DNA from: Pseudomonadota bacterium
GTDB lineage: Bacteria > Pseudomonadota > Gammaproteobacteria > Steroidobacterales > Steroidobacteraceae
Direction: 5' to 3'
Assembly: GCA_018241525.1 (NCBI GenBank)
Contig: JAFEDR010000001.1
Location: 372,001 to 436,000, forward strand
DNA: 64,000 nucleotides
Shown here: positions 6,623-23,080 of the stretch, piece after piece
Layout of the letters: each line of letters opens with the position of its first letter
Numbering within the stretch: position 1 is the stretch's first letter
Position numbers and translations under genes: made by a program
The notes under the pieces: generated by a model
What the model was told of the DNA's origin: nothing
The model's input: only the letters and a program-made list of their open reading frames with translations
The model's database searches: none

Positions 6623-7459
6623 TCAGCCCCGCGACTTCGGCGGGTCCGTCAGTGGATAGGTGGTCGCGCCACCCGACTCAAGTCCACGCCCATCGGCCGG
6701 CGCCTGCTGCGACGCAGCAGGCGCGCCGCCGCTGGCCGCGGCCGGGGCGCGCGCCGCACCGGACGGAGCGACGCCGTCGCCGCCGTTCGGCAGCCTGCGC
6801 AGCGTGTCCAGCAGGCGTTGGGCGCTCGCGGGCGCGGCCGGCGCGGCCGGCGAGAGAAGCTCCGAGGCGAGCACTCCCGGTCGCTGGTAGTACTCACCGT
6901 TCGCCTTGTGGTCGATCGCGAGCACCGTGCCGTCGATCGCGATGCCGGCGAAGAGGCCCTTCGAGCGTGAGTAGGAATAGACCTCGGCGAGGCCGATATC
7001 GGTTGCACCCGAGACCTGGCGGCCGACGGGGCCCACCGCCACCGCGGCATCGGCGCCCAGCGTCAGCTTGCCGCCGGTCACGCCCTCGATGCTGCGTCGA
7101 GTCGTGAAGACGAGCACCACGTCGCTGACCTGCAGGCCCCACTGGAAACCGATGCTGCCGCCGCCGAGCGTCAGGAACACGGGGTTGCTCCAGCGGCCCT
7201 GCGCATCGCGCACGACCATCACGCCCTTCGCTCCGCGGCCGCCTGCGATCAGCGCGACCTTGACGACGTTCGGGATCACCGCGATGCCCTGCGCACGGCG
7301 CAGCAGCCAGTCCGGGATCGACTGGTCGGGCATCGCCTGCGTGTCCTGCAGCACCTGCGTGGCCTCGAGGATCCGGGCCTCCTCGCGGTTGCCGGCGATA
7401 GCGACGGTGTTGGCGGCGATGAAAAGCGCCGCGGCGTAGATGAGGCGTCGCGCTGTCAT
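6623..7459 (-). CDS. SYLF (Ysc84/DUF500) domain protein, secreted
   Basis: A 278-residue exported protein. A Sec signal peptide (residues 1-23) precedes a SYLF-type lipid-binding domain, about 30-200, with characteristic strings IPNVVKVALIAGGRGAKGV, GGGSIGFQWGLQVSDVVLVF and the late YSRSKGLFAGIAIDG. SYLF domains bind phosphoinositides in eukaryotes; the bacterial role is unknown. The C-terminal 75 residues are low-complexity Ala/Gly/Pro and probably disordered. Two candidate ATGs lie six bases apart (7463-7465 and 7457-7459); the inner one is chosen because AGGGG sits about six bases before it, whereas it abuts the outer one. Confidence 0.85.
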   Translation of the reverse strand: MTARRLIYAAALFIAANTVAIAGNREEARILEATQVLQDTQAMPDQSIPDWLLRRAQGIAVIPNVVKVALIAGGRGAKGVMVVRDAQGRWSNPVFLTLGGGSIGFQWGLQVSDVVLVFTTRRSIEGVTGGKLTLGADAAVAVGPVGRQVSGATDIGLAEVYSYSRSKGLFAGIAIDGTVLAIDHKANGEYYQRPGVLASELLSPAAPAAPASAQRLLDTLRRLPNGGDGVAPSGAARAPAAASGGAPAASQQAPADGRGLESGGATTYPLTDPPKSRG

Positions 7460-7599: not shown

Positions 7600-8580
7600 A
7601 TGCGCGCACTGCTTTCAGGGTTGCTTCTCGCACTGTCGCCATTTGCCGTCACCCCGGCGCTCGCGGACTGGCTGCATCGCGAAGAGTCGATCATGGGCAC
7701 ACGGATCTACGTCGAGCTGTGGCACGACGACCGCGTCCGCGGCGAGGCGGCGATCGATGCAGTGATGGAGAACATGCACCGGATCGACGAGCTGATGAGC
7801 CACTACCGGCCGGACAGCCAGATCTCGCAGATCAACATGCACGCCGCCGTCGAGCCGGTGGTCGTTGATACCGAGCTCTACGAGCTGATCCGCACGTCGA
7901 TCCACTTCTCCGAGATCACCGAGGGCGCGTTCGACATCACCTACGCCAGCGTCGGCTATCTGTACGACTACCCGCGTCACATCCATCCGACGGATGCGCA
8001 GATCCAGGCGGCCCTACCCGGGGTCAACTACCGCAATCTGGTGCTCGACCCTGACCGCCACTCGGTGCGCTTCGCGCACGAGGGCATGCGCATCGACCTC
8101 GGCGGGATCGGCAAGGGCTACGCCTGCGACCAGGGGGTCGAGATCCTGAAGCGATTCGGCGTCGCCAACGCGATGGTGATGGCCGGCGGCGACACGCGCC
8201 TGCTCGGCGATCGGCGCGGTCGCCCGTGGATGGTCGGGATCCGTCACCCCGACAACAAGAACCGCATCGTGCTCAGCATGCCGCTCGCCGACGTCGGCAT
8301 CTCGACCTCGGGGGACTACGAGCGGTACTTCGACGAGGGCGGCGTTCGTTACCACCACATCATCGACCCGAAGACGGGGCGCAGCCCGACCGGCGTGCGC
8401 AGCGTGACGATCATCGGTCCGACGGCGACCGATACGGAGGGCTGGTCGAAGGGCGTGTTCATCAAAGGGGCGGAGGAGGGCATCCGCCTGATCGAGCGCT
8501 ACCCGCAGATGGACGCCGTGGTCGTCGACAAGGACGGCAAGGTCTGGTACTCGAAGGGACTGACGCCGCCGTCGCCCTAG
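7600..8580 (+). CDS. ApbE-family FAD:protein FMN transferase, variant active site
   Basis: A 326-residue exported ApbE homologue; canonical members move FMN from FAD to a Thr/Ser of a periplasmic protein. Residues 1-22 are a signal peptide. Family motifs run in order: EESIMGTRIYVEL, GAFDITYASVGYLYDYP, IDLGGIGKGYACDQ, GGDTRLLGDRRGRPWMVGI, STSGDYERYF and YHHIIDPKTG. The C-terminal metal motif normally read DA(L/M)(S/A)T is EGWSK here (in TDTEGWSKGVFIKG), so the expected magnesium-binding Asp and Thr are Glu and Lys. Either the metal is held differently or the protein has lost transferase activity. It converges on the DUF3570-DUF4266-TlpA set, with which I believe this subfamily commonly co-occurs. 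Confidence 0.85.
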   Translation: MRALLSGLLLALSPFAVTPALADWLHREESIMGTRIYVELWHDDRVRGEAAIDAVMENMHRIDELMSHYRPDSQISQINMHAAVEPVVVDTELYELIRTSIHFSEITEGAFDITYASVGYLYDYPRHIHPTDAQIQAALPGVNYRNLVLDPDRHSVRFAHEGMRIDLGGIGKGYACDQGVEILKRFGVANAMVMAGGDTRLLGDRRGRPWMVGIRHPDNKNRIVLSMPLADVGISTSGDYERYFDEGGVRYHHIIDPKTGRSPTGVRSVTIIGPTATDTEGWSKGVFIKGAEEGIRLIERYPQMDAVVVDKDGKVWYSKGLTPPSP

Positions 8581-8596
8581 GCGGCGTGCGGCGCGG

Positions 8597-9775
8597 CTAG
8601 AACCAGATCGTCAGCAGGCCCTGAACGACGTTCGCGTTGTAGTGGTAGAGCGGCTCGGTGCCAGCCGGCAACTGGCGCTGGCTCGCATCGCGGAAGTCCT
8701 TGAACTTGTACATGATGTAGTCGTAGTGCAGCGAGCCCGAGAAGCGCTTCAGGAACCAGCGCTTGGACTTCAGGAAGTCGTAGGACAGTGCCGCGCCGAC
8801 CGCGTTGTTGTCCTGGGCCGCCAGCTCCTTGTCGCGCGCCATGTAGTTCTGCTGGTTCGCGAACTGGAACAGATCCGAGTAGAACGAGGCCGAGTTCTGC
8901 CGGTAATAGCGGTAGGTGATGTCGGCGATCAGGCGCTCGTTCAGGAACGGCTGCGTGTAGTCGACCTCCGCGGTGTGTGCGTGAATGTCCCAGGTGTCGA
9001 AGAAATAGCGATACTTGCCCGTCACCGACGCGTGCCAGGGCAGGAAGTACTTCAGGCGTACCGCGACCGCGTTGCTGGTGCGGGTGCCCGGGTAGGTCTC
9101 CGCGCCGGTCAGGTAGATCGTCGAGCCCGGTCCGGCGAGGTAGCGGATCGCGCGATACGGGTTCTGCAGGTAGCCCTGCTCGGTGATCGCCTCATAGTCG
9201 AAGCCCGACAGCAGGTTGCGCGTCAGGATCTGCGAGATGCCGAGCGACCAGGTCTTGCGGTCGACGCGCCGGCGGAAATTCGGATCCTTCTGGTGCGCGG
9301 CGTTGATGACCCGCGTGACGATGTCCCAGCCGCGGCTGACCCCGAACGTCACCGTGGTCAGGTCGCCGAACATGCTCTGCGAGATCCCGAAGCTCGCGGT
9401 GCTCGAGTCGTAGTCGTTCTCGATGCTGCTCTGGACCCCGGCGCTGTAGGTGGTCTTGCCGTACAGGAAATCGACGCCGAGCTGCTTCTGCTTGCGTACC
9501 TCGTGCAGCGGGCTCGCGCCGAGCACGACCATGTCGATCGAAGCCCCGGTCACCTGGTCGACCGCATAGCCGGCGCTCACCGAAACCTTGTCCGAGAAGT
9601 TCTTGCGGACCAGTACCGCCGGGCCCTGCACCTTGAGCCCGCCACCGTCATAGGTGCGCCAGCTGGCATCGGCGCGCTCCTCGGGCAGCACGTCGGCCGT
9701 GGCGCGCATGACGACCAGCAGCGCGAACGCGAGAGCGGCGACTCGGGCGACCGTCAATCGGGAGGTCGGGATCAT
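8597..9775 (-). CDS. DUF3570 outer-membrane beta-barrel protein
   Basis: A 392-residue exported protein. After a signal peptide (about residues 1-28) comes LPEERADASWRTYDGGGLKV, the typical DUF3570 opening, then alternating hydrophobic strands and aromatic ends consistent with an outer-membrane barrel, finishing in a terminal phenylalanine (LLTIWF), the usual barrel-assembly signal. DSSTASFGISQSMFGDLTTV and TFGVSRGWD also fit the family. The function of DUF3570 is not established. The gene is last in a minus-strand run after DUF4266, TlpA and two other barrel proteins. The start at 9773-9775 is the ATG just before the signal peptide; the ribosome binding site is weak. Confidence 0.85.
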   Translation of the reverse strand: MIPTSRLTVARVAALAFALLVVMRATADVLPEERADASWRTYDGGGLKVQGPAVLVRKNFSDKVSVSAGYAVDQVTGASIDMVVLGASPLHEVRKQKQLGVDFLYGKTTYSAGVQSSIENDYDSSTASFGISQSMFGDLTTVTFGVSRGWDIVTRVINAAHQKDPNFRRRVDRKTWSLGISQILTRNLLSGFDYEAITEQGYLQNPYRAIRYLAGPGSTIYLTGAETYPGTRTSNAVAVRLKYFLPWHASVTGKYRYFFDTWDIHAHTAEVDYTQPFLNERLIADITYRYYRQNSASFYSDLFQFANQQNYMARDKELAAQDNNAVGAALSYDFLKSKRWFLKRFSGSLHYDYIMYKFKDFRDASQRQLPAGTEPLYHYNANVVQGLLTIWF

Positions 9776-9806
9776 GCTGATGCGCTTCCGCGGCCGACAG
9801 CGAGGG

Positions 9807-10034
9807 TCAATTGCAGCCGCAGCCGCCGCCGGCTTCGCCGGTGCCGCCGCGGGCGCCTTCGCGATTCTCGCGAACGTGCGTGATGTAGCCGGACATGATC
9901 GGGTCACGGTCCCAGGCCATGACGCGGTCGGCCAGACGTTCGCGCTCGTAGGGCTTGACCCACGGCTGCACGCCGGCGCAGCCGGCTGCGTTGACGGCAA
10001 GCGAGAGCAACAGGGCGATGCGCAGCGCACGCAT
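9807..10034 (-). CDS. Small DUF4266 lipoprotein with Cys-rich C-terminal tail
   Basis: A 75-residue lipoprotein. The signal peptide ends at lipobox AAGC (Cys19). The mature part, about 56 residues, begins AGVQPWVKPYERERLADRVM and ends in GGTGEAGGGCGCN, with two cysteines in a CGC motif three residues from the end. This matches my memory of DUF4266, a family of short lipoproteins of unknown function. The tail could bind metal, form a disulfide or be a modification site; with a TlpA thioredoxin two bases upstream, redox handling of the CGC is a reasonable guess. Its ATG follows the TlpA stop region by two bases, so the two are almost certainly co-translated. Confidence 0.85.
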   Translation of the reverse strand: MRALRIALLLSLAVNAAGCAGVQPWVKPYERERLADRVMAWDRDPIMSGYITHVRENREGARGGTGEAGGGCGCN

Positions 10035-10036
10035 GG

Positions 10037-10543
10037 CTATTTCTCCATCAGCAGGGCGCGAACCTGGTTCAGGTACTCGTTCTCGTCACCGGGGACGTAG
10101 CTGCGGTGCACCCAGCGCAGCACGCCCTTGCGGTCGACCAGCACGGTGGTCGGCATGCCGGACACGCGGTAGGCCTTGCTCACGGTACTGTCCTTGTCGA
10201 ACAGGATCGGGAAGGTGACCGGCGTCTTGGCGATGAAGCCCTCGGCATCCTTGGCATCCGGCTCGACGTTGACGCCGACCAGCGTGAAGCCGGCCGCCTT
10301 GTACTTCTTGTAGATCTGGTCGAGCAGCGGGAATTCCTTGCGGCACGGCTCGCACCAGGAGGCCCAGAAATTGACCATCACGACCTGACCGCGCAGCTTG
10401 TCGAGCCCGAGCGGTGCATTGCCACCACGCAGCGGCAGTGAGAAGGCCGGTGCCGGCTGGCCGATCGGGTCGGCGGCGAGCACCACGGCAGGTGACGCGA
10501 GCCCGGCAGCGAGCGCGACGGCGAGGTACATCGGTCGGAACAT
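10037..10543 (-). CDS. TlpA-like periplasmic thioredoxin-fold protein (CEPC)
   Basis: A 168-residue exported thiol-disulfide protein. A signal peptide (about 1-25) is followed by the TlpA/ResA pattern: PIGQPAPAFSLPLRGG, MVNFWASWCEPCRKEFPLL with active site CEPC, and the cis-proline loop GMPTTVLVDRKG. It probably reduces or isomerises disulfides in neighbouring exported proteins. The start chosen (10541-10543) has GGAG nine bases upstream; an alternative ATG at 10556-10558 would add five residues. The neighbour downstream is DUF4266, whose CGC tail is an obvious candidate client. A second, different TlpA protein lies at 22.4 kb. Confidence 0.9.
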   Translation of the reverse strand: MFRPMYLAVALAAGLASPAVVLAADPIGQPAPAFSLPLRGGNAPLGLDKLRGQVVMVNFWASWCEPCRKEFPLLDQIYKKYKAAGFTLVGVNVEPDAKDAEGFIAKTPVTFPILFDKDSTVSKAYRVSGMPTTVLVDRKGVLRWVHRSYVPGDENEYLNQVRALLMEK

Positions 10544-10569: not shown

Positions 10570-11259
10570 TCAGAAGAACACGGTCACCCCAAGACCGGTC
10601 TCCAGGTTGTGAGTCGTCTTGTTCGAGCCGAGCAGGTCGATGTCGAAGATGCTGTCGCGCACGTCGAAGTGCGCCGCCAGCCAGTCGTTCAGCAGCATGC
10701 GGTAGCCGGCCCCGATCGCGACGGTGAAGCGATTGTCGCCGGCGAAGTGCGTGGCGCCCACGCCGCCCGTCACATACAGCGCGGAATTGAAGGCCCGGCG
10801 ACGTCCGGCGAACACCTCGCCCGGCAGCAGGTTGTAGCCGAAGTCGAGGCTGTAGTACGTGAGCTTGCGCTGGCTGTCGGTCAGCAGCTGGGCGCCGCCG
10901 GAGAGCCGTTCGTAGCTGGTGCGGCCGACCGTCGTGTGGCCGATCATGGCCTGGGAGAAGAAGTCCTCGCTGATGTGGTACACGAGCCGTGCGCCGAGCA
11001 CCGGGTTCACGCCGAAGTCCTCGGCGCTGTACGTGCCGATGTAGGGTCCGATCTCGAAGTTCGAACTCTTGATCTTCGGCGTCTTGACGGTCCGCCGCGT
11101 GACCTGCGGCTCGACCACGGCCGGCGCCGACCCGTCCGCCGCCGTGGCTTCGACCGGCACCTCCTCGGCGCGCGGCTTCTTGTGGAACGGCCACAGCGAG
11201 CAGCCGCCGAGCGCGAGCGCGGCAGCCATCAGAAGAAGAACGCGAAGCCTACTTTCCAT
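10570..11259 (-). CDS. Outer-membrane beta-barrel lipoprotein-like protein (Glt/OMP_myx type)
   Basis: A 229-residue protein with a signal and lipobox ending in GGCS (Cys20), a short charged linker, then a compact 8-10 strand barrel pattern from about residue 65 (FEIGPYIGTYSAEDFGVNPV, GARLVYHISEDFFSQAMIG) to a C-terminal double phenylalanine (LGVTVFF). This resembles the outer-membrane barrel family associated with myxobacterial motility and spore-coat clusters; I judge that by pattern only. A lipobox in front of a barrel is unusual, so the cysteine may be coincidental. Its start overlaps the end of the next upstream gene by 31 bases, so the two are translationally coupled. Confidence 0.8.
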   Translation of the reverse strand: MESRLRVLLLMAAALALGGCSLWPFHKKPRAEEVPVEATAADGSAPAVVEPQVTRRTVKTPKIKSSNFEIGPYIGTYSAEDFGVNPVLGARLVYHISEDFFSQAMIGHTTVGRTSYERLSGGAQLLTDSQRKLTYYSLDFGYNLLPGEVFAGRRRAFNSALYVTGGVGATHFAGDNRFTVAIGAGYRMLLNDWLAAHFDVRDSIFDIDLLGSNKTTHNLETGLGVTVFF

Positions 11260-12002
11260 TCGTTCCGGTCCTCGTTGGAATCGCGCCGCGTGAAGAGCAC
11301 GTAGCTGCGATAGTCGCCGCGGAATAAGAAGCGATGCGAGACGTACCACTTCACGCCAGCGCCGTAATACGCGATCTGCTCGGTCCGCTGCGGCGGCGTG
11401 ATGATGGTGGCCTTCGGCTGGATGCGCACGGCGCCGGTGCCGAGCTCGAGGAACGGCGCGACCCGCCAGTCCGGGCGCGGTGCGTGCGTCAGCCCGAGCA
11501 GCGCGATCTCGCCATTGGCGGCATGGCCGAGGGTCTGCGCGACCTCGAACTGCGCCGCGAGGTTGGCGTTCAGCGAGTAGGCGACGTACAGGCTGTTGAC
11601 GTTGCCGCCGCCGAAGTTGCCGCTCTGCACGCCGGACTCCCACGGGTAGAGGTCGAAGTCCCGGTGCGACAGATCCTCGAGCGGCAGCTTCTCGCCACTC
11701 GCCAGCAGCGTTTCCTGCATCGAGTCGCGGAACGCCCAGCCCTCGCGGTCGTATTCGTCGCGTACCTTGAACCAGTCGGTGCGCCGGAACAGGATTTCGA
11801 CGTGCTCGCCGCGCGGCACGACGCGGAACACCGGGTAGCCGCGACCGGGACCCGTGTGCAGCTCGAGGTAGGGATCGGCAACCGCGACGTCGACGTAGTG
11901 GCCGGCCTCACGATCGAACCGCCGCGTACTCTCCGCCGCTTGAGCGAGTCCCGCTGCCGTCGCCAGAATAAGTAAGCTTGCGAGGTTCAGGACTTTGCGC
12001 AT
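11229..12002 (-). CDS. SH3-domain plus outer-membrane beta-barrel protein
   Basis: A 257-residue exported protein. Signal peptide 1-22 is followed by a bacterial SH3-like domain, about 35-95 (YLELHTGPGRGYPVFRVV, VEILFRRTDWFKVRDEYDR, GWAFRDSM), a module that usually binds peptidoglycan or peptides. From about residue 120 the sequence becomes an outer-membrane barrel (SLYVAYSLNANLAAQFEVAQ, APFLELGTGAVRI, IAYYGAGVKWYVSHRF), ending in phenylalanines (VGFAFFF). It could tie the outer membrane to the cell wall. It lies four bases after the hydrazine-synthase-like gene and overlaps the following barrel gene by 31 bases, giving a contiguous minus-strand operon down to 8597. Confidence 0.82.
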   Translation of the reverse strand: MRKVLNLASLLILATAAGLAQAAESTRRFDREAGHYVDVAVADPYLELHTGPGRGYPVFRVVPRGEHVEILFRRTDWFKVRDEYDREGWAFRDSMQETLLASGEKLPLEDLSHRDFDLYPWESGVQSGNFGGGNVNSLYVAYSLNANLAAQFEVAQTLGHAANGEIALLGLTHAPRPDWRVAPFLELGTGAVRIQPKATIITPPQRTEQIAYYGAGVKWYVSHRFLFRGDYRSYVLFTRRDSNEDRNEWKVGFAFFF

Positions 12003-12006
12003 TCGA

Positions 12007-14832
12007 TCAATTGGCCGGTGGGATCGCGAACGGATCGTTGTAGTACTGGGCGCCGATGTCGAGCCACTCGGAGATCAGCTTCAGCTCGGACCCGGTCAGC
12101 CAGCCGGCATGCGTACCGCCGGTTGTGAACTCGCTGAAGAAGGCCGCTGAAGCATTCGCTCCCGCGCCGCTCATCGGTGGACTGGTCGGAACCAGTGTCG
12201 GCAATCCGGTCACGGGGTCCGGCGGTCCGGGGACGGGCAACATAGTAACAGGGTCGAGCTTGGTATGCGGGAAGAGCAGGTCGCAGAAAGACGTGTATTC
12301 CTGCTGTACGCAAGGGTTCGTCGCGGCGGGGCTCGTCGTGAGATCGAGCTGGCTGTTGCCGAGCGGCACGCGCTTAACGCCGTTCGCGTCGACCGGGCTG
12401 TGGCAGTCGGTGCACATCGTCGCCATCTGCGTCGTACCCGGATTGACCGCCGTGATCGACGTGCGCGGGGTCGTCCAGATCGGCGCGATGTGGATCGGGT
12501 AATGGATCGTGATCCGGCAGTTGCCCTGCCAGTTCGTCTCGCAATCCGCGCGCACCGGCGCAGGCGTGCTCAACGCCGCGTAGGTCCAGGAGAACGCAGG
12601 GTCCGGGGTGCCGACGCCGGTCGGCGTCCAGACGTCTGCGAAGACGATGTCGACCGCCGGCTGCGCCGAGCAGGCGGCATCGACGCAGGTCACCTGCATC
12701 GCAGCACGGTATTCCGCCATCGTCTCGCCGGCATTGGGCTGGCGCGGCGGCAGGATGGTGTTGCCGGTCCGGTCAGTGACCTGCAGCTGGGTGTTCGGGA
12801 AGGCCTGTCCGGTGGTGGTGGCGCCGGTGTTCACCAGCGCGAACAGCCCGGTCCGGCCGTGGGAATTCGACGGCGGCTGCTGGGCCTGCACGTGGCAGCC
12901 GTTGCAGACCACGGTCTCGCCGGTGCGGATCTGCATCCACGCGCGGTGGCGCGGGTAGGTGCCGTCGAGCCGGCGGCCATTGGCATCGAGCACGCTGATC
13001 TGGAACGGGATGTTGGCGGGCACCTTGACGCGCACCGAGCCATCCGGCTCGACCTGGGCATAGCCGATGATCTCGCGCATGAACCCGCCGGCGGCGCCGA
13101 AGGCGTAGTTCGGGAAGGCGTTGTTCGAGAGCACCTCGCGGTCCGGCAGGCTGACCGCCTTTTCGATGCGGATGAACCGTGGCCGGACCGGGCTGGGCTG
13201 GCGCTTGGTTGGATCGCTGACCGTGGCGATGCCGCCCGGAGCGCGGTCGATCCCGTCGAAATCGTAGACGCTCTTTATATCTAGGATGCCGACGCCCTCG
13301 GCGGCGAGGCTGAACGTGTACGAACCGGTCGCGCTCGGCTGGGCGTCGGGGATCGGGGTCGGAGTCGGCAGTCGCGGCTGCAGCGCGACGACGTTCGTGT
13401 ACATCATGCCTTCGACCGGCGGCACGATCGGCATCTGGGTGCTGGCCTTCGGGTCGTAAATCCAGACACCGTAGATGGTGGGCGCCGGAACGGCAGTCGC
13501 GTTCGCGAGATTGTCGGAGGTGCACGGCACGATCTGCGTCTGGATCACGAGCCGGCACTGGGTCCACGAGACGAGCAGCCGATTGGTGCCGTCCCACAAC
13601 GGGAACACGCTCGAGAACCGGCCGCCGGGCGAGGCGGGCGCGAACGGCGCCGGCGTCCCGGCCGGGGCGTTCGGGTCGGCGGGCGGCGCCTCGGTGGTGA
13701 TCACATCGTTGATCACCAGCCGGCTCTGGCCGGTGGTCCCGGCCGCCGCAGTAGAGCTCAGGACCTTCTGGACGTTCTCGACGAAGTTCGCCGCGTCGAT
13801 CAGGGCGATGTCCCCGCCGAACTCCGTGCCCTGGAACGGCCGTAGCAGCGCGACGACCTTGCCGTCCGGCCGGGTCCGTGCCTGGGTGAACTGCACCAGC
13901 GACCCGCCCTGGGCGGTGGTGGGGTTCCCGGTGTCGTGACTGTTGCGCCCGTAGAGCAACTGCATGTCGCCGCCGTCCGGGTCGATCGCATAGAGATGCA
14001 TGCCGGCGCCGGAATTGATGTCCCAGCGCGTGAACACCACCCGGCCGTCATTCAGCACCGACGGATCCAGATCATGGCCGGTGTTGAACGAGATCTGACG
14101 GATGCCGCTGCCATCCGCGTTCATGACGTGTACGACGAAGGCGGGCAGGTTGCGGTCGCCCTCGATGCCGGCGGCAAACTGCGCTTTGCCCTCGTCGATC
14201 AGCACCGCCTTGGCATCATGCTGGCGCGTGGACGAGAACACGATCCGGCCGTCGGGCAGGTAGTGCGGCCCGACGTCGTGGCCGAGCGCGGCCGCGATCG
14301 GGTCGGAGATGACCTGGCGCAGGGTGGCGCTCGTAAGGTCGTACTCGAAGATCGTCCAGCGTGGCTGCTGCGATTGCTTGGCGTTCTTGATCGGCCGGCA
14401 ACGGAACGAAAAGATCAGCTTCTTGCCGTCGAAGGACGTGTCGAGGTCCCGCACGTCATGGTCGGGACCGGAGGCCTGGTTCGGGTCGGAGGCGAGCGGG
14501 CAGGCCAGCGCGGCCGTGAGATTCTTCTCGTTGGCCGTCGGGCTGGCGCTCTCGCGCAGCACCACGTCGGCCGGACCGTTCCAGACACGCTGCACGCGCA
14601 GGTCGTCCTCCAGCGTGATCGCATTGGGATCGTTGGCTTTCGGCAACGTGCGCTTGATGTACGCGATCGCGAAGTCCGGCGAGACCGGATCATTCGACGA
14701 GCTGCCGCTGCCGAGGCTGATGCCGCTGTTCGGGCCCTCGCTGCTGGAGCACGCGGACGCGAGTACCGCGACCAACGCAACGACTAGCCATCGCTGCATG
14801 CTGCCCAGCAGGTCAGGAACGTGCTTGTCCAT
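12007..14832 (-). CDS. Hydrazine-synthase-alpha-like exported c-type cytochrome lipoprotein
   Basis: A 941-residue exported protein. A signal peptide and lipobox (LASACSSS) are followed by a beta-propeller region with PD40/TolB-like repeats (LDTSFDGKKLIFSFRC, PHYLPDGRIVFSSTRQHD, HLYAIDPDGGDMQLLYGRN), then a large beta-rich region and two heme c motifs, CNGCH at 643-647 and CTDCH at 807-811. The layout matches proteins annotated as HzsA-related (middle domain of anammox hydrazine synthase alpha), but no other anammox subunits are near, so hydrazine synthesis is not implied. The start at 14830-14832 is chosen for the strong GAGGAAGG ribosome binding site; an inner ATG at 14797-14799 is possible. 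It is divergent from the next cytochrome gene. Confidence 0.8.
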   Translation of the reverse strand: MDKHVPDLLGSMQRWLVVALVAVLASACSSSEGPNSGISLGSGSSSNDPVSPDFAIAYIKRTLPKANDPNAITLEDDLRVQRVWNGPADVVLRESASPTANEKNLTAALACPLASDPNQASGPDHDVRDLDTSFDGKKLIFSFRCRPIKNAKQSQQPRWTIFEYDLTSATLRQVISDPIAAALGHDVGPHYLPDGRIVFSSTRQHDAKAVLIDEGKAQFAAGIEGDRNLPAFVVHVMNADGSGIRQISFNTGHDLDPSVLNDGRVVFTRWDINSGAGMHLYAIDPDGGDMQLLYGRNSHDTGNPTTAQGGSLVQFTQARTRPDGKVVALLRPFQGTEFGGDIALIDAANFVENVQKVLSSTAAAGTTGQSRLVINDVITTEAPPADPNAPAGTPAPFAPASPGGRFSSVFPLWDGTNRLLVSWTQCRLVIQTQIVPCTSDNLANATAVPAPTIYGVWIYDPKASTQMPIVPPVEGMMYTNVVALQPRLPTPTPIPDAQPSATGSYTFSLAAEGVGILDIKSVYDFDGIDRAPGGIATVSDPTKRQPSPVRPRFIRIEKAVSLPDREVLSNNAFPNYAFGAAGGFMREIIGYAQVEPDGSVRVKVPANIPFQISVLDANGRRLDGTYPRHRAWMQIRTGETVVCNGCHVQAQQPPSNSHGRTGLFALVNTGATTTGQAFPNTQLQVTDRTGNTILPPRQPNAGETMAEYRAAMQVTCVDAACSAQPAVDIVFADVWTPTGVGTPDPAFSWTYAALSTPAPVRADCETNWQGNCRITIHYPIHIAPIWTTPRTSITAVNPGTTQMATMCTDCHSPVDANGVKRVPLGNSQLDLTTSPAATNPCVQQEYTSFCDLLFPHTKLDPVTMLPVPGPPDPVTGLPTLVPTSPPMSGAGANASAAFFSEFTTGGTHAGWLTGSELKLISEWLDIGAQYYNDPFAIPPAN

Positions 14833-15169: not shown

Positions 15170-16390
15170 ATGAAATCAGCGACGCCGAAGACCAACGAAC
15201 CCGCCGCGACGCCGCACGCCATCTGGGGCGAGGCGATCGTTGCGCTGCTGCTCATCGGACTCGTGCTGATGTCGGCTGCCGCGCATGCCGGTTCGCGGGA
15301 GCAGGCGATGCGGATGCACGACCGGCTCAACGGCGTTCCGCCGACGCAGTCGGTGCTTGACGCGATGCAGGCCAAGATCGACGGCGGCGACGCGAAGGGC
15401 GCCGCGCTGCTCGCGATCGAGGATCCCAACGGCATGTTCTACTCGGTCACGGTCAAGAACTTCGCGACGCCCTGGACGAACCGCGACCAGACGCCGTTCG
15501 CGCCGCTGAACGACTACTCCGCGACGGTCGTCGGCATGGTACGCGACGACGTGCCGTTCAACACGCTGCTGTCGGCCGACATCATCTATGTCGGCAAGAG
15601 CAGCCTCGGTCTGCCGGCGTACTCGAGCTCGAGCAACGACCACTACGTGCAGATGGAAGCGCAGGCGGTAAACCTCAAGGATGGGCTCGTCAGCCAGGCC
15701 CAGTCGGCCACGACCGGGCTGCCGGCGGCTGCGACCGCCGGCGTGATGACGACCCGTGCCGCTGCGCGGGCGTTCTTCATCCTCGGCACCAACCGGGCGA
15801 TGTTCCGCTTCACGATGATCAACCACATGTGCACAGACCTGCCGCAGGTCATGGACATCACCCGGCCGACCGACCGCATTCGCCAGGACGTGAGCCGCAG
15901 CCCGGGCGGCGACAGTCGCGTGTTCCTGAACAACTGCGTCGGCTGCCACTCGGGCATGGACCCGATGGCGCAGGCCTTCGCCTACTACGACTACGTCGAC
16001 AATACGACGACCGACAACGGCTCGCTGCAGTACACGCCGGGGACGGTCGTCGGCAAGTACTTCCACAACAACACGACCTTCGCGCCGGGCTTCGTCACGC
16101 CGGACGACCGCTGGGACAACCGCTGGCGGTCGGGTCAGAACGCGCTGATGGGGTGGGACTCGACCCTGCCCGGCAGCGGCAACGGTGCGAAGTCGCTGGG
16201 TGCGGAAATCGGCGCAAGCGGCCAGTTCGCGCAGTGCCAGGTGCAGAAGGTGTTCCAGGCGGTCTGCCTGCGGGCGCCGTCCGACGCCGCCGACCGCGCG
16301 CAGGTCGCGACGATGGTCGCGAGTTTCAAGCAGGGGTACTCGCTGAAGGGCGTGTTCGCGGATGCGGCCGTCTACTGCATGGGCAATTGA
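15170..16390 (+). CDS. Exported c-type cytochrome of unknown function, one CxxCH
   Basis: A 406-residue protein with an N-terminal membrane segment (IVALLLIGLVLMSAAAHA, about residues 24-41) that is probably a signal peptide with a long charged lead. One heme c motif, CVGCHSGMDP, lies at 256-260. The CxGCHxxMDP pattern is shared with DUF1588-type cytochrome domains of planctomycetes, so a distant relationship is possible. Aromatic-rich repeats follow (YYDYVDNTTTDNG, YFHNNTTFAPGF). It begins a three-gene plus-strand run with the LamG cytochrome 13 bases downstream. The physiological role is unknown; the neighbours suggest a multi-protein periplasmic redox assembly. Confidence 0.72.
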   Translation: MKSATPKTNEPAATPHAIWGEAIVALLLIGLVLMSAAAHAGSREQAMRMHDRLNGVPPTQSVLDAMQAKIDGGDAKGAALLAIEDPNGMFYSVTVKNFATPWTNRDQTPFAPLNDYSATVVGMVRDDVPFNTLLSADIIYVGKSSLGLPAYSSSSNDHYVQMEAQAVNLKDGLVSQAQSATTGLPAAATAGVMTTRAAARAFFILGTNRAMFRFTMINHMCTDLPQVMDITRPTDRIRQDVSRSPGGDSRVFLNNCVGCHSGMDPMAQAFAYYDYVDNTTTDNGSLQYTPGTVVGKYFHNNTTFAPGFVTPDDRWDNRWRSGQNALMGWDSTLPGSGNGAKSLGAEIGASGQFAQCQVQKVFQAVCLRAPSDAADRAQVATMVASFKQGYSLKGVFADAAVYCMGN

Positions 16391-16403: not shown

Positions 16404-18935
16404 ATGAAGGCCTCCAGCTCGATCGACACCCTCACTGCCGGCTCGCGGCGACGCGCGCTCCGCGGCGCGCTGCGCACGTTCGCGAGCCTCGCGCTCGTCT
16501 CCGTGCTCGCCGCCTGCGGCGCCGGCAGCGTGCAGACCGCGCCCAATCCGGTGACGCCGCCGACATCTACCGGCCAGGCCTACAACGGCCCGGCACCGGC
16601 GAGCGCCGACGTCCAGGCCTTCGTCGTCAATTTCTGGAACAACGTCAAGGGCACCGATCGCTGTGGAGCGTGCCACATCCAGGGCAACCAGAGCCCGATG
16701 TTCGCGCGCAATGACGACGTCAACCTGGCGTACCAGGCGGCACAGACGGTCGTTGACCTCACGAATCCGGGCAACTCGACCATCGTGGCGAAGGTGTCCG
16801 GCGGGCATCACTGCTGGCTCGCGAGCACGCAGGCGTGCGGCGACACGATGACGACCTGGATCCGGAACTGGGCCGGCGTGACGCTGGGCGCCTCGAAGGC
16901 GCAGATCCAGCTCGTGGCGCCGACGCTGGCGGATGCCGGCGGGTCGCGCACGTTCCCGACCAGCTCGCAGCTCTTCTCGCAGACGGTCTACCCGCTGCTC
17001 ACGCAATACTGCTCGCGCTGCCACTCGCCGTCGGCGGTGACCGCCCAGTCGCCGTACTTCGCGCAGGCCGATGTCGATGCTGCCTACGCGGCGGCCCAGC
17101 CGAAGATGAACCTCGACACGCCCACGCTGTCGCGCTTCTACGTCCGGCTGCACAACGAGTTCCACAACTGCTGGGGCGGCGACTGTGCCGCGGCCTCGGC
17201 GCAGATGCTCGCCGCGATCCAGGCGTTCGCTAACGGCGTGCCGGTCACGCAGGTTGACCCGGCCTGGGTGCTGTCGAAGGCGCTCACGATGTACGACGGC
17301 GTCGTCGACAACGGCGGCACTCGCGTCGAGACCGGCCTGATCGCCAAGTTCGAGTTCAAGACCGGTACCGGCACGGTGGCGTACGACACCAGCGGCGTCG
17401 AACCGGCGCTCAACCTCGACATGACCGGTGACGTGACCTGGGTCGGCGGCTGGGGCGTGCAGGTGCAGAACAAGGGCAAGCTGCAGGGCACGACCACCGG
17501 CAGCGCCAAGCTGCACGACATGATCCTGCAGACTGGCGAGTACAGCATCGAGGCCTGGGTCGCGCCCGCGAACGTCACCCAGACGAATGCCTACATCGTC
17601 TCGTATTCCGGTGGCACCACCCAGCGCAACTTCACGCTGGGCCAGACGATGTACAACTACGATGCATTCCTGCGCAGCACGAACACGAACGCGAACGGCC
17701 AGCCGGAATTCTCGACGCCGTCGGCGCAGCAGGTCCTGCAGGCGACGCTGCAGCACGTGGTGATGACCAATGACCCGGTGAACGGCCGGCAGATCTACGT
17801 CAACGGCGCGCTGGTGGCGAGCGGCGATCCGCAGAAGGGCGGTTCGTTGTCGCAGTGGGATAACACGTTTGCGCTGGTGCTCGGCAACGAGGTTTCGTCG
17901 GATCGGCCCTTCAGCGGGCTGATCAAGATGGTCGCAATCTACAACCGGGCGATGCCGGCGGCCGATGTGCAGGCGAACTTCGCCGCAGGCGTCGGCGAGC
18001 GCTACTACCTCCTGTTCAACCTGGACAAGTGGACCGCGCTCAGCCAGACGTACGTGATGTTCGAAGTCTCGCAGTACGACAGCTACTCGTACCTATTCAA
18101 CAAGCCGGTCTTCCTGAGCCTCGACCCGAACACCACGTTCAGCGGCGTCGTCGTCAAGGGCATGCGCATTGGCATCAACGGCGGCGAGGCGCCGGTGGGC
18201 CAGGCCTATGCGCCGCTCAATACGACCGTCAGCGGCCAGGGCTTCGATCCGACCACGAGCCCGATCAGCGCAGTCGCGCTGTCGAGCGTCGGCACGACCA
18301 TCGCACTGCAGAAGGGACCGTCCTACGACCAGTTCTTCCTGACCTTTGAGCAGCTCGGTTCGGCAACCAACGTGCATACCGACCCGACGCCGATCGCGCC
18401 GATTCCGACCGACTCGCCGCGTCCGGCCGATATCGGCGTGCGGACCTTCGAGCGCATCAACAGCGCGCTGTCGACGATGACGACCGTGCCGAAGACCAAC
18501 GCGGCCGTCAGCGCTCTTTACAATAAGCTGCAGCAGTCTCTGCCGGCGACCCCGGACTTCCAGGGCTTTGTCGCCTCGCACCAGACGGCCATTGCGCAGC
18601 TGTCGATCCAGTACTGCGACGCGCTGGTTCGCGACCCGACGTTGAGCGCCGCCTACTTCCCAGGCGTCAACTTCGGCGCGGCGCCTGCGGTCGCCTACAA
18701 CGCGAGCGGCCGCGCCGCGCTGATCAATCCGCTGATCGGCCAGATGCTCTCCGCCAACGTCACGGCCGGCAAGTACGTCGCGACGCAGCCGAGCGCATCG
18801 ACGGTGACCACGGAACTCAATGCGCTGATCGACAAGCTGGTGGCCTCGGTCTCCGCCGACGCAACCGGGACGGCGACGATCGCCAAGGCGTCCTGCGCGG
18901 CGGTCGCCGGCAGCGCCGCGATGCTGGTGCAGTGA
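16404..18935 (+). CDS. Exported diheme cytochrome with LamG (concanavalin A-like) domain
   Basis: An 843-residue protein with an Arg-rich N-terminus and lipobox LAAC (about residue 34). Two heme c motifs are present: CGACH at 87-91 and CSRCH at 203-207; each sits in a similar repeat (FVVNFWNNVKGTDRCGACH and YPLLTQYCSRCHSP, both followed by a HxCW segment), suggesting internal duplication. A LamG-like fold covers about 310-535 (GEYSIEAWVAPANV, VNGALVASGDP, PFSGLIKMVAIYNRAMPAADV). The C-terminal 300 residues have no motif I know. The ATG at 16404 follows GGGAG; an upstream in-frame ATG lies inside the previous gene and is less likely. It probably forms a complex with the flanking exported proteins. 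Confidence 0.78.
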   Translation: MKASSSIDTLTAGSRRRALRGALRTFASLALVSVLAACGAGSVQTAPNPVTPPTSTGQAYNGPAPASADVQAFVVNFWNNVKGTDRCGACHIQGNQSPMFARNDDVNLAYQAAQTVVDLTNPGNSTIVAKVSGGHHCWLASTQACGDTMTTWIRNWAGVTLGASKAQIQLVAPTLADAGGSRTFPTSSQLFSQTVYPLLTQYCSRCHSPSAVTAQSPYFAQADVDAAYAAAQPKMNLDTPTLSRFYVRLHNEFHNCWGGDCAAASAQMLAAIQAFANGVPVTQVDPAWVLSKALTMYDGVVDNGGTRVETGLIAKFEFKTGTGTVAYDTSGVEPALNLDMTGDVTWVGGWGVQVQNKGKLQGTTTGSAKLHDMILQTGEYSIEAWVAPANVTQTNAYIVSYSGGTTQRNFTLGQTMYNYDAFLRSTNTNANGQPEFSTPSAQQVLQATLQHVVMTNDPVNGRQIYVNGALVASGDPQKGGSLSQWDNTFALVLGNEVSSDRPFSGLIKMVAIYNRAMPAADVQANFAAGVGERYYLLFNLDKWTALSQTYVMFEVSQYDSYSYLFNKPVFLSLDPNTTFSGVVVKGMRIGINGGEAPVGQAYAPLNTTVSGQGFDPTTSPISAVALSSVGTTIALQKGPSYDQFFLTFEQLGSATNVHTDPTPIAPIPTDSPRPADIGVRTFERINSALSTMTTVPKTNAAVSALYNKLQQSLPATPDFQGFVASHQTAIAQLSIQYCDALVRDPTLSAAYFPGVNFGAAPAVAYNASGRAALINPLIGQMLSANVTAGKYVATQPSASTVTTELNALIDKLVASVSADATGTATIAKASCAAVAGSAAMLVQ

Positions 18936-18957: not shown

Positions 18958-20571
18958 ATGATCATCCGTAACAAACCCCCGCGGGGCCTCCAGCTCAACG
19001 AGCCGATCCGCCACCGCGACGCGCACAAGCGTCCGGTGTCGCGGCGCGACTTCATCGCGCAAGGCTTCATGACAGGCTCGGCGACGGTCATGGCGCCGGC
19101 GGCCCTCAGCCTGCTGCTGAATCCGCAGCGGGCAATGGCCCTCGATTCGGACATCCTGGCCCAGAAGATCGCCTGCGGGATCACCGGGGGCGCCGGCAAG
19201 ATTCCGTTCATCTGCTTCGACCTGGCCGGTGGCGGCAACATCGCCGGCTCGAACGTGCTGATTGGCGGAGCCGGCGGGCAGCAGGACTTCCTGACCACGG
19301 CGGCCTACGGGAAGATGGGCTTGCCCGGCACCATGGTGCCAAACGCATCTGCTACCGGTACGAACATCGAGAGTCGGCTGGGCCTGCTGTTTCACATCGA
19401 TAGCGCGCACGCCCGCGGCATCATCGAGCGGACGTCGGCGGCGACGCAGGCGAACGTCAATGGCGTCGTGATCCCGGCGCTGTCCAACAACGACACAAAC
19501 ACCAACCCGCACAACCCGATGTACGGCATCGCCCAGGCGGGCGCGAAGGGCGAGCTGCTGACGCTGATCGGGTCGCAGCCTTCGACCTCGGGCGGCAATT
19601 CGATGGCGCCACTGTCGATGGTGAATCCGGCGCTGACGCCGACGGTCGTCACGCAGGCGAGCAACGTGACCGGCCTCGTCGACACGGGCGTCCTCGGGCA
19701 GCTGTTCGCGAATCCCGCCGATGCCGTGTCCGTGCTTGAATCGATGTCGCGGATCAGCGGCCAGAAGTTCGGCAACGTGTCGACGCAGCTCGCCATGGAT
19801 TCGAGTGTGAAGTCCGCAGCCAACTGCAACTACGTGAAGTCGGCTTACCTGGCGGAGAACTTCTCCAATCCGGCGGCTCTGAACCCCGACCTCGACCCAC
19901 AGATCGTCGACCAGACGTCCACGCGCGGCAGCGGCATCTTCAGCCAGGCGGAGTACCAGAGCGACTCCGAGTTCCAGAAGACGGCGGCGATCATGAAGAT
20001 GGTCGTGAATGGCTACGCCGGTGCCGGTACGGTCACGCTGGGCGGTTACGACTACCATGGCCAGGGCCGCTCCACGGGCGAGATCCGTGACCTGCGAGCG
20101 GGTCGCTGCATTGGCGCCTGCCTGGAGTACGCGGCGCGCATGCAGAAGCCGCTGATGGTCTACGTGTTTAGCGACGGCGGCATTTCGGCGAATGGCCAGG
20201 TCGATTCTTCGGTCGACGGGCGCAACAAATTCATGTGGACGAGCGACAACGAGTCGGTGGCGGCGACCTACTTCCTGGTCTACAACCCGGGTGGCCGGCC
20301 GCAGCTGCTGGACGGCGCTGGCGGTCTGCCAGCGGCGAGGCACCAGCAGATCGGGTCCTATACGCCGGACGGTTCGGTGAACTCGGCCTCGAGCCCGGCG
20401 GCGAACAACGTGCTGCTGCTGGTGCAGACGGTGCTGCTGAACTACATGGCCCTGCACGGCCAGCAGGCGCAGTTTCCGCAGGTCTTCCCGGACCAGGCGC
20501 TCGGTACGGGCTCGGCGCTCGATGCGCTGACGGCCTTTGCGCCGATCGTCAACGGCAAGATCGGCGGCTGA
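18958..20571 (+). CDS. Tat-exported DUF1501-like protein
   Basis: A 537-residue protein with a twin-arginine-type leader (PVSRRDFIAQGF at about residues 26-37, then a hydrophobic stretch to about 62). The body resembles DUF1501 / alkaline-phosphatase-fold proteins commonly paired with planctomycete-type cytochromes: FICFDLAGGGNIAGSNVLIG near the start of the mature part, GGYDYHGQGRSTGEIRDLR in the middle (compare DxHxxQ motifs in DUF1501) and YVFSDGGISANGQVD. Similar proteins are sometimes labelled as a general secretion factor, a label I see no support for. It is translated 22 bases after the LamG cytochrome, with a GAGG ribosome binding site. Tat export implies cytoplasmic folding or a bound cofactor. 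Confidence 0.75.
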   Translation: MIIRNKPPRGLQLNEPIRHRDAHKRPVSRRDFIAQGFMTGSATVMAPAALSLLLNPQRAMALDSDILAQKIACGITGGAGKIPFICFDLAGGGNIAGSNVLIGGAGGQQDFLTTAAYGKMGLPGTMVPNASATGTNIESRLGLLFHIDSAHARGIIERTSAATQANVNGVVIPALSNNDTNTNPHNPMYGIAQAGAKGELLTLIGSQPSTSGGNSMAPLSMVNPALTPTVVTQASNVTGLVDTGVLGQLFANPADAVSVLESMSRISGQKFGNVSTQLAMDSSVKSAANCNYVKSAYLAENFSNPAALNPDLDPQIVDQTSTRGSGIFSQAEYQSDSEFQKTAAIMKMVVNGYAGAGTVTLGGYDYHGQGRSTGEIRDLRAGRCIGACLEYAARMQKPLMVYVFSDGGISANGQVDSSVDGRNKFMWTSDNESVAATYFLVYNPGGRPQLLDGAGGLPAARHQQIGSYTPDGSVNSASSPAANNVLLLVQTVLLNYMALHGQQAQFPQVFPDQALGTGSALDALTAFAPIVNGKIGG

Positions 20572-20640
20572 GCCTCGTCGAGGCGCACGGCGGGGCCGGC
20601 GCGGGCTGCGCCCGTCGCGCCGTTGCGGCATGCTGTCGGC

Positions 20641-22005: not shown

Positions 22006-22377
22006 CGCGGCTCACGCTCGCGGCGTGCATTCAAGGCTGCTCCTGTCGCCATCCGGCGACGCACTGACATTCAAAACTGCGCCGCCGCCGTTTTTGTGAA
22101 GCGGCCATCATTCTCGATTGGCGCCGCGCGTTGACAGTGCCCGGCGTGCGTGCGAGCTTTACAAAATCTGCCAAGGGCAAACTCGTCGCGAGGCGAGCAC
22201 GCAAAACCACCGGTCCGTCCGCGTACGGACAGCGGGGTTGCCGCGAGCGGTTGCCGGCGTCGCGTCGGCGGCCCGCGCGACGCCCTGTGACCGGTGACGC
22301 GCACCGCGCATGAACGGTGCTGCCCGCGGAGCAGTGACTTGGAGCGAGTGGCGACGGTGGACTGGCGGGTACTCCAG
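22006..22377. other. Intergenic region before the TPR-motor operon
   Basis: A gap of 372 bases. A consensus TTGACA at 22131-22136 and AT-rich TACAAAAT at 22160-22167 are the only promoter-like elements, but their spacing (23 bases) is too long for a standard sigma-70 promoter, so an activator or another sigma factor may be involved. A run TTTTTG at 22091-22096 follows a GC-rich stretch and might be a weak terminator for the methyltransferase gene. Otherwise I see no gene. The next gene could also start at a GTG (22348) preceded by GGAG. Confidence 0.4.
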
Positions 22378-22917: not shown

Positions 22918-23080
22918 CGAGGCGATTCATGGACAGCCCCCGCATTGCGGTCGCGATGTTGGATTGTGGTCGGAATCCGCGCAGGCGGCCGGTGGCCGCG
23001 CGTATGCCCTCGTGGGCGACGCGCTGGTTCGTGTGGATCACCAGGGTGCTGTTGCGCCCCTGAAGAAAAAGGCCCGGACG

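Follow-up and report, generated by a model that had tools for sequence, protein, structure and literature searches.

The locus and its conserved surroundings

Four genes lie at the locus, encoding ApbE, DUF3570, DUF4266 and TlpA proteins, and Pfam profile matches place each of them where a sequence-only reading of the window (the whole 64,000-nucleotide stretch analysed) had put it. The gene for ApbE, an FAD:protein FMN transferase with a Sec-like signal (positions 7600–8580, plus strand; PF02424, E 1.4e-81), stands outside the operon and is convergent with that for DUF3570 (group B; 8597–9775, minus strand; PF12094, E 2.7e-42), a predicted 16-strand outer-membrane barrel. DUF4266 (9807–10034, minus; PF14086, E 2.2e-21) is a 75-residue lipoprotein with the lipobox AAGC and the glycine-rich tail GGGCGCN, and two bases (10035–10036) separate its start from the gene for a TlpA/ResA-like thioredoxin (10037–10543, minus; PF08534, 5.5e-28, and PF00578, 1.7e-27) with the CxxC motif CEPC; the earlier description was accurate on the lipoprotein and on the spacing. 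The limits it had drawn, 7600–10543, are too narrow, as the minus-strand operon extends as far as 14832, and the conserved cluster comprises about 18 genes and reaches approximately 32231.

Past TlpA, the operon holds two further barrel genes, one for an outer-membrane beta-barrel with a lipobox-like signal (10570–11259, minus; TIGR04565, OMP_myx_plus, 156.4 bits, cut-off 60) and one for an SH3-domain outer-membrane barrel protein (11229–12002, minus; PF08239, 2.3e-9), both conserved in order. These are followed by the gene for a hydrazine-synthase-alpha-like (HZS-like) lipoprotein with a TolB-like propeller and two CxxCH motifs (12007–14832, minus; PF18582, 5.6e-14, 52.9 bits, cut-off 26.6). 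The order HZS-SH3/OMP-OMP-TlpA-DUF4266-DUF3570, on one strand, recurs at 68 of the best 80 of 499 loci.

The plus strand continues the cluster with N1, a divergent CxxCH protein whose relatives give weak PSCyt3/PSD2 (DUF1588/DUF1585) matches (15170–16390; 56/80 loci), N2, a LamG-domain protein with a lipobox-like signal and two CxxCH motifs (16404–18935; PF13385, 4.3e-24; 52/80), and N3, which has no Pfam match and a Tat-like signal read by eye (18958–20571; 48/80), all counted in the best 80 of 499. Next come a second TlpA/ResA-like thioredoxin, 31% identical to the first (22294–22917; PF00578, 1.7e-16), and a TPR/ExbBD block headed by N5, a conserved protein (22853–23674). The block comprises the TPR protein N6 (23665–25635; PF14559, 4.2e-8), the large TPR protein N7, with weak GltE similarity (25632–29027; TIGR02795, 130 bits; NF033758, 22.6 bits, cut-off 225), an ExbB/TolQ-type channel protein (29579–30274; PF01618, 5e-26), a gene pair of ExbD/TolR type, and a TonB-like protein with an AgmX/PglI C-terminal domain (31314–32231; NF033768, 69.3 bits, cut-off 40). 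The first of the pair (30271–30780) is taken to be ExbD/TolR-like by its place and general look; the second (30777–31292) matches PF02472 (4.4e-14). NF033768 exceeds its cut-off in all 40 genomes with group-B DUF3570, and in the cluster scan GltG (43.6 of 650 bits) and GltE (22.6 of 225) both stayed below theirs.

The AlphaFold model of the HZS-like protein aligns with hydrazine synthase alpha (5c2v_D) over 594 residues (Z 31.1, r.m.s.d. 3.9), and its CxxCH haem sites are conserved among relatives. For hydrazine synthase alpha, the role of the proximal Tyr591 is described in the available text of PMC12758564 and PMC12607021. Its equivalent (His587 + 4) is missing here, the window having Q651 and S, T, A, G and P being commonest in 47 rows. 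Of the alignments made in the analysis, one comprised 62 rows, the window plus 61 out of 79 references, and another 47 rows, the window plus 46 out of 60. Anammox-like chemistry for this protein was rejected because the haem Tyr ligand is missing.

That the four families recur together, as the sequence-only reading stated, was found far beyond chance in the genome samples and is already published in the available part of PMC8238504. A 150-genome sample of the phylum gave an identical set of 12 genomes for DUF3570 and for DUF4266 over its cut-off, and in these the two are neighbours on a single contig. ApbE was present in 12/12 genomes checked (11 of those 12 and one with a weak DUF4266 hit), and is present too in the remaining genome, which is the window's own. 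Among 60 relatives, DUF4266 is over the cut-off in 37, and 37/37 have DUF3570 and ApbE. The earlier reading had staked its case on DUF4266 not occurring widely without its partners; this held for ApbE, which was always there, and in large part for TlpA, which is nearly, not strictly, constant (missing at L038, L040 and L148). No paper joining these cluster genes was found in the literature searched, and a term search of PMC12204202 gave 0 matches.

Acceptor sites on a predicted barrel

The sequence-only reading saw no FMN-acceptor motif in the neighbours of ApbE and proposed for the enzyme either some other target or a new role. DUF3570 has the motif DQVTGAS (D73-QVTGA-S79) and a second site, D81-MVVLGA-S88. 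Both acceptors are kept in all 106 group-B sequences with intact sites (from a survey of 120 DUF3570 loci, 10 left out as identical), in which D73, A78, D81 and S88 are invariant and position 79 is S or T. In the available text of PMC8238504, DUF3570 of Chlorobium luteolum is flavinylated by its own ApbE at two [S/T]GA[S/T] serines; with the motif in a proven ApbE substrate, the earlier proposal is unsupported. The constructs described there contained DUF3570 and apbE only, and DUF4266 is therefore dispensable for FMN attachment; the flavinylated protein was mostly in the pellet, so that ApbE can act on unfolded substrate.

Set against the published [S/T]GA[S/T] pattern, the window's first site (TGAS) fits and its second (LGAS) has Leu before GAS. 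The pattern is absent from the acceptor loop in 68 of the 106 group-B sequences, which mostly have SSAS or TTAS instead. This relaxed putative acceptor motif, missed by the published pattern, is new here, and it means that motif surveys undercount predicted flavinylated proteins in the group-B branch. Searching with D-x-x-[ST]-[GS]-A-[ST] across the best 80 of 499 loci found the relaxed motif in 80/80 DUF3570 and 4/69 HZS-like proteins, and in none of the other cluster families examined, some of them small (one AgmX, for example), which ruled out an ApbE target elsewhere in the cluster.

AlphaFold models DUF3570 as a closed barrel of 16 long strands (pLDDT 88, pTM 0.83) and, with its signal peptide and C-terminal Phe (F392), the protein has by prediction the features of an outer-membrane barrel. 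By sequence there were 0 matches to solved relatives at E 1. By structure, the model matches PgaA (Z 20.1, r.m.s.d. 3.3 over 253), OmpG (Z 18.4), PelB and MtrB. The acceptor loop (78–89) lies opposite the termini in a region modelled with low confidence (block means of 78 and 56); both acceptor serines are thus predicted to sit in an outward loop, 'outside' being read from general barrel topology. Positions changed in FMN-less members showed no outer-side enrichment (17/60 versus 6/19, p 0.78).

The window's ApbE domain is full length (PF02424, 274.4 bits, profile 1–265 of 266) and aligns with the solved ApbEs 1vrm, 7esa and 4xdt; no lipobox was seen in it. At its metal site, E and K replace D and T (TDTEGWSKG), the Thr presumably being the second expected residue. 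The same replacement occurs in 9 of 39 ApbE rows outside group A, eight of the nine in the window's genus, and group A ApbEs likewise lack the Asp, with G in 9 of 10 rows and one row unresolved (identical ApbEs removed; two rows of the survey left unresolved). In E. coli Ftp, D283 is a metal ligand, according to the source text available. Given the altered site, activity of the window's ApbE is assumed. The view that the enzyme must be dead was dropped because relatives whose acceptor sites are intact show this change too.

Joint loss of the DUF4266 tail and the FMN sites

The CxC tail of DUF4266 is present in 103/103 testable flavin-competent loci, a count that leans to typical members because the 80 loci are the best 80 of 499, and that omits two of the 105 intact-site relatives, that lack a DUF4266 call (L127 lies at a contig end, and L076 is weak). 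In the survey of tail conservation no start was found for L107, and the final Asn of the CGCN tail is almost constant. The tail is missing in 5/5 loci without FMN sites, three of which were scored 'no DUF4266 called' and read as tail-less by eye. The starred branches force three independent lineages of joint loss. Three of the FMN-less genomes have no ApbE (G007, G010 and G014), the sole ApbE of G005 adjoins its group-A cluster, and the one ApbE of G029 is on another contig. The barrel of G029 carries DUF4266 as an N-terminal fusion, an argument that the two make contact on the periplasmic side. As far as the literature searched shows, this co-loss is the first comparative evidence linking the DUF4266 lipoprotein to flavin.

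The first TlpA (motif WASWCEPC) keeps its CxxC in 77/77 relatives and also matches PF13905, PF00085, PF13098, PF00255 and PF13911. Among the five FMN-less loci, four retain the CxxC (L074, L077, L078 and L080; no TlpA was found at L079), and TlpA must therefore also serve something else. DsbD is absent from the window's cluster, the sole DsbD_TM match of the window's genome being on another contig (C2); DsbD matches were present in 8/8 genomes examined, one each in seven and two in G066, and the available text of PMC8238504 already counts 316 clusters without DsbD.

A possible redox relay and known systems

We give an even chance to the reading that a larger redox machine of the outer membrane has these four genes as its flavin/thiol arm and works as a relay from thiol to flavin to haem. 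Ser79 and Ser88 of DUF3570 would each receive a covalent FMN from ApbE, most likely ahead of barrel folding. A DsbD-type transporter encoded elsewhere would deliver electrons to TlpA, which would keep the CxC pair on the flexible, Gly-rich DUF4266 tail reduced; the tail could extend into the barrel through its periplasmic mouth and pass electrons to the FMNs, and these in turn to the HZS-like dihaem lipoprotein, the putative haem partner at the cell surface. The ExbB/ExbD/AgmX/TPR block may act as a proton-driven, envelope-spanning scaffold. The donor, the acceptor and the direction of electron flow are what we infer, whereas the gene set, the acceptor sites, the barrel prediction, the coupling of CxC tail to FMN sites, and the conservation of operon and cluster are supported by the data. 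The complete picture, with a two-flavin barrel conduit, a swinging CxC tail, an HZS-like surface cytochrome and a mechanically coupled, gliding-machine-like proton motor, is a tentative one that we doubt.

Two ResA/TlpA-type thioredoxins and three CxxCH proteins in one cluster, along with a TlpA CxxC that survives flavin loss, could instead suggest a maturation system, in which both TlpAs and the DUF4266 tail keep the cysteines of exported haem and disulfide proteins (HZS-like, N1 and N2) in the reduced state for the attachment of haem, the flavin barrel doing no more than dispose of or supply electrons for this. This is unlikely in our judgement, as L077 and L078 keep TlpA with no HZS-like gene in the stretch seen, and it is with the FMN sites, rather than the haem gene, that the DUF4266 tail disappears: at L074 the HZS-like gene is retained after FMN loss and the tail is gone. 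If the tail were a binding site for a metal ion (Cu, Zn or Fe), serving to load or gate the barrel rather than to carry electrons as a dithiol, that would suit the near-constant Asn, superfluous for a plain dithiol, and the metal links suggested for DUF3570 clusters (VIT1 in 25 clusters, in the available text of PMC8238504). However, a redox role accords better with the adjoining CxxC thioredoxin and with a tail lost along with the flavin sites, and Pfam scans of the cluster recognised no conserved metal transporter; metal binding is decidedly unlikely.

The same 25 VIT1 clusters, and the linkage of ExbB/ExbD/TonB-like genes in the window's cluster, would also agree with a barrel that reduces ferric iron at the surface or serves as a port for iron acquisition, which is what Meheust et al. 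suggest for some DUF3570 clusters in the text available. This has only a small chance of applying here, where the conserved genes scanned included no recognisable TonB receptor or iron transporter and the TonB-like protein is of AgmX type. Barely credible is the earlier idea of another ApbE target or a new role, even if the E/K site, concentrated in the window's genus, might be read as an enzyme inactive there: genus members that keep an E/K ApbE have intact DUF3570 sites and members without it have lost them, and by analogy the Asp-less ApbEs of group A belong to a kind of system that is active in C. luteolum, in the published text available.

The four-gene module is already in print, in the available text of Meheust et al. 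2021 (PMC8238504), which describes clusters of ApbE, DUF3570, a thioredoxin and DUF4266 with a C-terminal CXC, and demonstrates DUF3570 as an ApbE substrate. New here are the cluster context, the tail co-loss, the relaxed motif and the barrel prediction. In contrast to the published clusters, the DUF3570 model is matched only in part in the window's branch, where [S/T]GA[S/T] is mostly missing and TlpA is of Redoxin type with no PF13899 (thioredoxin-like) match (none at E 0.01 in the window's protein); the branch also lies inside an HZS-like/OMP/ExbBD/AgmX cluster that the available text does not mention.

The HZS-like protein shares with hydrazine synthase alpha (5c2v) its fold, the middle domain PF18582 and a CxxCH at the same place, but has a lipobox and lacks a Tyr where the haem alpha-I ligand would stand, and no beta/gamma partner was seen in its operon. 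MtrCAB porin-cytochrome conduits likewise join redox cofactors to an outer-membrane barrel, and 6r2q_B matches the DUF3570 model (Z 15.7); here, however, a covalent flavin is predicted on the barrel itself and no multihaem wire was seen, so the likeness is one of analogy only. With the Glt/Agl core complex (gltD, E, G, C and aglRQS), described in non-gliding Gammaproteobacteria with its function called unknown (Luciano et al. 2011, PMC3169522), the cluster has in common one block of TPR proteins, an ExbB/TolQ-like protein, two ExbD/TolR-like proteins and a TonB-like protein with an AgmX/PglI tail, a likeness at the level of the gene block. Thioredoxin and cytochrome are never named in that paper. 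Linkage to the HZS-like, barrel and ExbBD/AgmX genes would place a redox function on the 2011 block and, if the relay is real, the conduit would supply the Gammaproteobacterial core complex with its long-missing task, so that a bacterial envelope machine without an explanation gains a redox role that can be tested.

Gene set, co-occurrence and branches

All four genes named in the sequence-only reading lie in the window where it placed them, each with a Pfam match far over the cut-off: ApbE (7600–8580, plus strand), and DUF3570 (8597–9775), DUF4266 (9807–10034) and a TlpA-type thioredoxin (10037–10543), all three on the minus strand. The TlpA stop and the DUF4266 start are separated by two bases, as claimed. 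ApbE lies tail to tail with DUF3570 and outside its operon. A gene for a Ysc84/SYLF-domain protein (6623–7459) adjoins ApbE and is also present in 24 of 80 related loci, while a second, more distant ApbE gene is found in the window's genome outside the window (G000:C14:963866-964639).

The families were said to recur together, and this holds. In a phylum-wide sample of 150 genomes, DUF4266 and DUF3570 exceeded the cut-off in the same 12, always adjacent. ApbE was present in 12/12 genomes searched, namely eleven of these twelve plus G077, which has a weak DUF4266 match only; the window's own genome was searched for ApbE separately. Among 60 relatives, ApbE was present in all 37 genomes with DUF4266 versus 9 of the remaining 23. 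Only four of the 60 have DUF3570 without an over-cut-off DUF4266 (a three-member clade, G007, G010 and G014, and G029), and their DUF3570 proteins lack the acceptor serines too.

By fit to the Pfam model, DUF3570 proteins of the 60 relatives fall into two branches. Group A proteins match most of the model (E below 1e-90), whereas group B proteins, including that of the window, match approximately model positions 107–387 (E 1e-10 to 1e-43). By hand count, 40 genomes have group B and 10 have group A, with nine carrying both. Group A loci have the order TlpA-DUF4266-DUF3570-ApbE (TlpA was not found at L075), with no hydrazine-synthase-alpha-like (HZS-like) or additional barrel (OMP) genes in the stretches read.

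Flavin acceptor sites and the lipoprotein tail

The sequence-only reading saw no FMN-acceptor motif in the neighbours of ApbE, which is wrong: DUF3570 residues 73–88 (DQVTGASIDMVVLGAS) contain one ApbE-type motif, D-x-x-T-G-A-S, followed by a degenerate second. We surveyed 106 distinct intact-site sequences of the window's branch, counting the window's own. Asp73, Ala78, Asp81 and Ser88 are invariant. Position 79 has Ser in 105 sequences and Thr in the remaining one, and position 87 has Ala in 102; just before Ala78 stands Ser (86 sequences) or Gly (20). As 68 of the 106 have no [S/T]GA[S/T] anywhere within the acceptor loop, the published motif would overlook them. A relaxed pattern, D-x-x-[ST]-[GS]-A-[ST], is present in 80/80 DUF3570 proteins and nearly absent from the rest of the cluster. 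Meheust et al. 2021 (PMC8238504) named DUF3570 as an ApbE substrate and reported the Chlorobium luteolum protein as flavinylated at two serines; Ser79 and Ser88 of the window's protein are very probably flavinylated.

The metal-site Asp/Thr pair of ApbE is Glu/Lys in the window, its genus mates and L125, and the label 'ApbE variant' is therefore real, yet the acceptor sites beside this ApbE are intact. Elsewhere the pair is Asp/Lys in seven and Asp/Thr in 22, and in group A it is Gly/Thr (8) or Gly/Lys (1). Replacement of Thr by Lys is seen repeatedly among relatives; the window's genus also has Glu for Asp.

The acceptor sites are absent from five loci, L074 (G005), L077, L078 and L079 (G014, G007 and G010) and L080 (G029), and all five also lack the Gly-rich C-terminal CGCN (CxC) tail of DUF4266; the tail is present in 103/103 intact-site loci with a called DUF4266. 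At L074, CGCN has become CSSN, and at L077–L079 the lipoprotein body is kept with its tail replaced. At L080 (8620–9942) a tail-less DUF4266 body is fused to the N-terminus of a DUF3570 barrel whose acceptor sites are gone. The tree requires three changes to the FMN-less state, three being forced by the starred branches, with L080 on a long branch. ApbE is absent throughout G007, G010 and G014; the sole ApbE of G005 adjoins its group A cluster, and that of G029 is on another contig. The TlpA CxxC is kept in L074, L077, L078 and L080, and TlpA was not found in L079. Because the flavinylated C. luteolum protein came from constructs described with DUF3570 and apbE alone (PMC8238504), we favour a role for the tail in redox exchange with the flavin over one in flavin attachment.

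Operon, larger cluster and predicted structures

Searching reference genomes with a profile of alignment A1 gave 499 relatives; the best 80 come, judged by record title, from many gammaproteobacterial lineages. The group B order (HZS-alpha-like, SH3/OMP, OMP, TlpA, DUF4266, DUF3570) is found complete, on one strand, in 68 of these 80 loci. Ten of the other 12 are short or end-lying contigs reaching the operon's tail only, at L127, next to a contig end, only DUF3570 is seen, and TlpA is missing from L148. ApbE lies inside the fetched stretch in 16/80. Divergent from the operon are N1 (CxxCH; 56/80 loci), N2 (LamG, two CxxCH; 52/80) and N3 (48/80). Relatives of N1 (15170–16390) weakly match PSCyt3/PSD2 (DUF1588/DUF1585), domains from planctomycete cytochrome proteins.

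Downstream of N3, the window contains a block of a second TlpA, N5, two TPR proteins, ExbB, two ExbD and an AgmX-tail TonB-like protein. In 9/80 loci this block, to the extent that the stretches cover it, comes after DUF3570 alone or after DUF3570 plus ApbE, and in eight relatives with ApbE near the block (L162–L169) ApbE heads it. In G066 and G074, from another order, the operon continues into the block on a single strand, from HZS-like via DUF3570 to AgmX; N1-N2-N3 are divergent, and ApbE lies past N3. The AgmX-tail family exceeds the cut-off in 40/40 group B genomes versus 5/20 others, and in 23 of the 40 it shares the contig, at a distance of up to 32 kb (hand counts). A methyltransferase-like gene (20623–22005) between N3 and the second TlpA occurs also in L168, L174 and L176, and in none of the best 80 loci. 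Two genus members, G013 (L177) and G004 (L178), keep the TPR/ExbB/ExbD/AgmX block and have no DUF3570, DUF4266 or ApbE; both OMP genes are still present in G013.

From 62 aligned rows, AlphaFold models DUF3570 as a barrel built of 16 long strands (pLDDT 88.1, pTM 0.83); the termini and the short turns share one side and the long loops are opposite, as read from strand order rather than from coordinates. It groups with outer-membrane barrels (Foldseek, VIA-align): PelB (E 5e-10), PgaA (Z 20.1, rmsd 3.3, 253 aligned) and MtrB (Z 15.7). The acceptor serines reside in loop 78–89 on the long-loop side, which by the usual topology would be extracellular. Of the 79 positions scored as highly conserved, 60 lie in the outer half, and the loops score 0.69 for conservation outside versus 0.58 inside; positions altered in FMN-less DUF3570 are not enriched in the outer half.

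The HZS-like protein (12007–14832, minus strand) belongs, with L082–L161, to a large gammaproteobacterial clade of HZS-alpha-like dihaem lipoproteins. Its model (pLDDT 83.3) aligns with hydrazine synthase alpha at Z 31.1 (594 residues), and its propeller with TolB (Z about 25). Conservation extends to the lipobox Cys and to both haem sites (one row deviates at Cys807) but not to the Tyr that ligates haem alpha-I.

A possible relay and known systems

The gene set, acceptor sites, predicted fold and coupling of tail to flavin sites rest on the analyses here; we infer the donor and the direction of electron flow, the haem protein as partner and the part played by the motor block. DsbD, encoded in 8/8 genomes examined, would pass electrons to TlpA, TlpA to the CxC tail of DUF4266, and the tail to two FMNs on the DUF3570 barrel, from which they might reach the HZS-like haems at the cell surface. 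The relay as a whole is as plausible as its failure, and the haem step taken singly is doubtful.

On HZS-like proteins, an anammox survey (PMC12758564, 2025) names homologues in Planctomycetota and Desulfobacterota, and in the text available neither 'gammaproteobacteria' nor 'Pseudomonadota' had a match. DUF4266 or DUF3570 appeared in no paper of the literature searched besides PMC8238504, and DUF3570 is absent from the 2024 follow-up (PMC11334425). None of the papers searched reports the branch, its relaxed motif, the joint loss of the tail and the acceptor sites, or the roughly 18-gene cluster. A similar gammaproteobacterial gene block was described by Luciano et al. 2011 (PMC3169522) as a core complex whose function is unknown. 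The four-gene module itself had been reported before: PMC8238504, which gives the function as uncertain, describes clusters of ApbE, DUF3570, DUF4266 and thioredoxin both with DsbD and without it.
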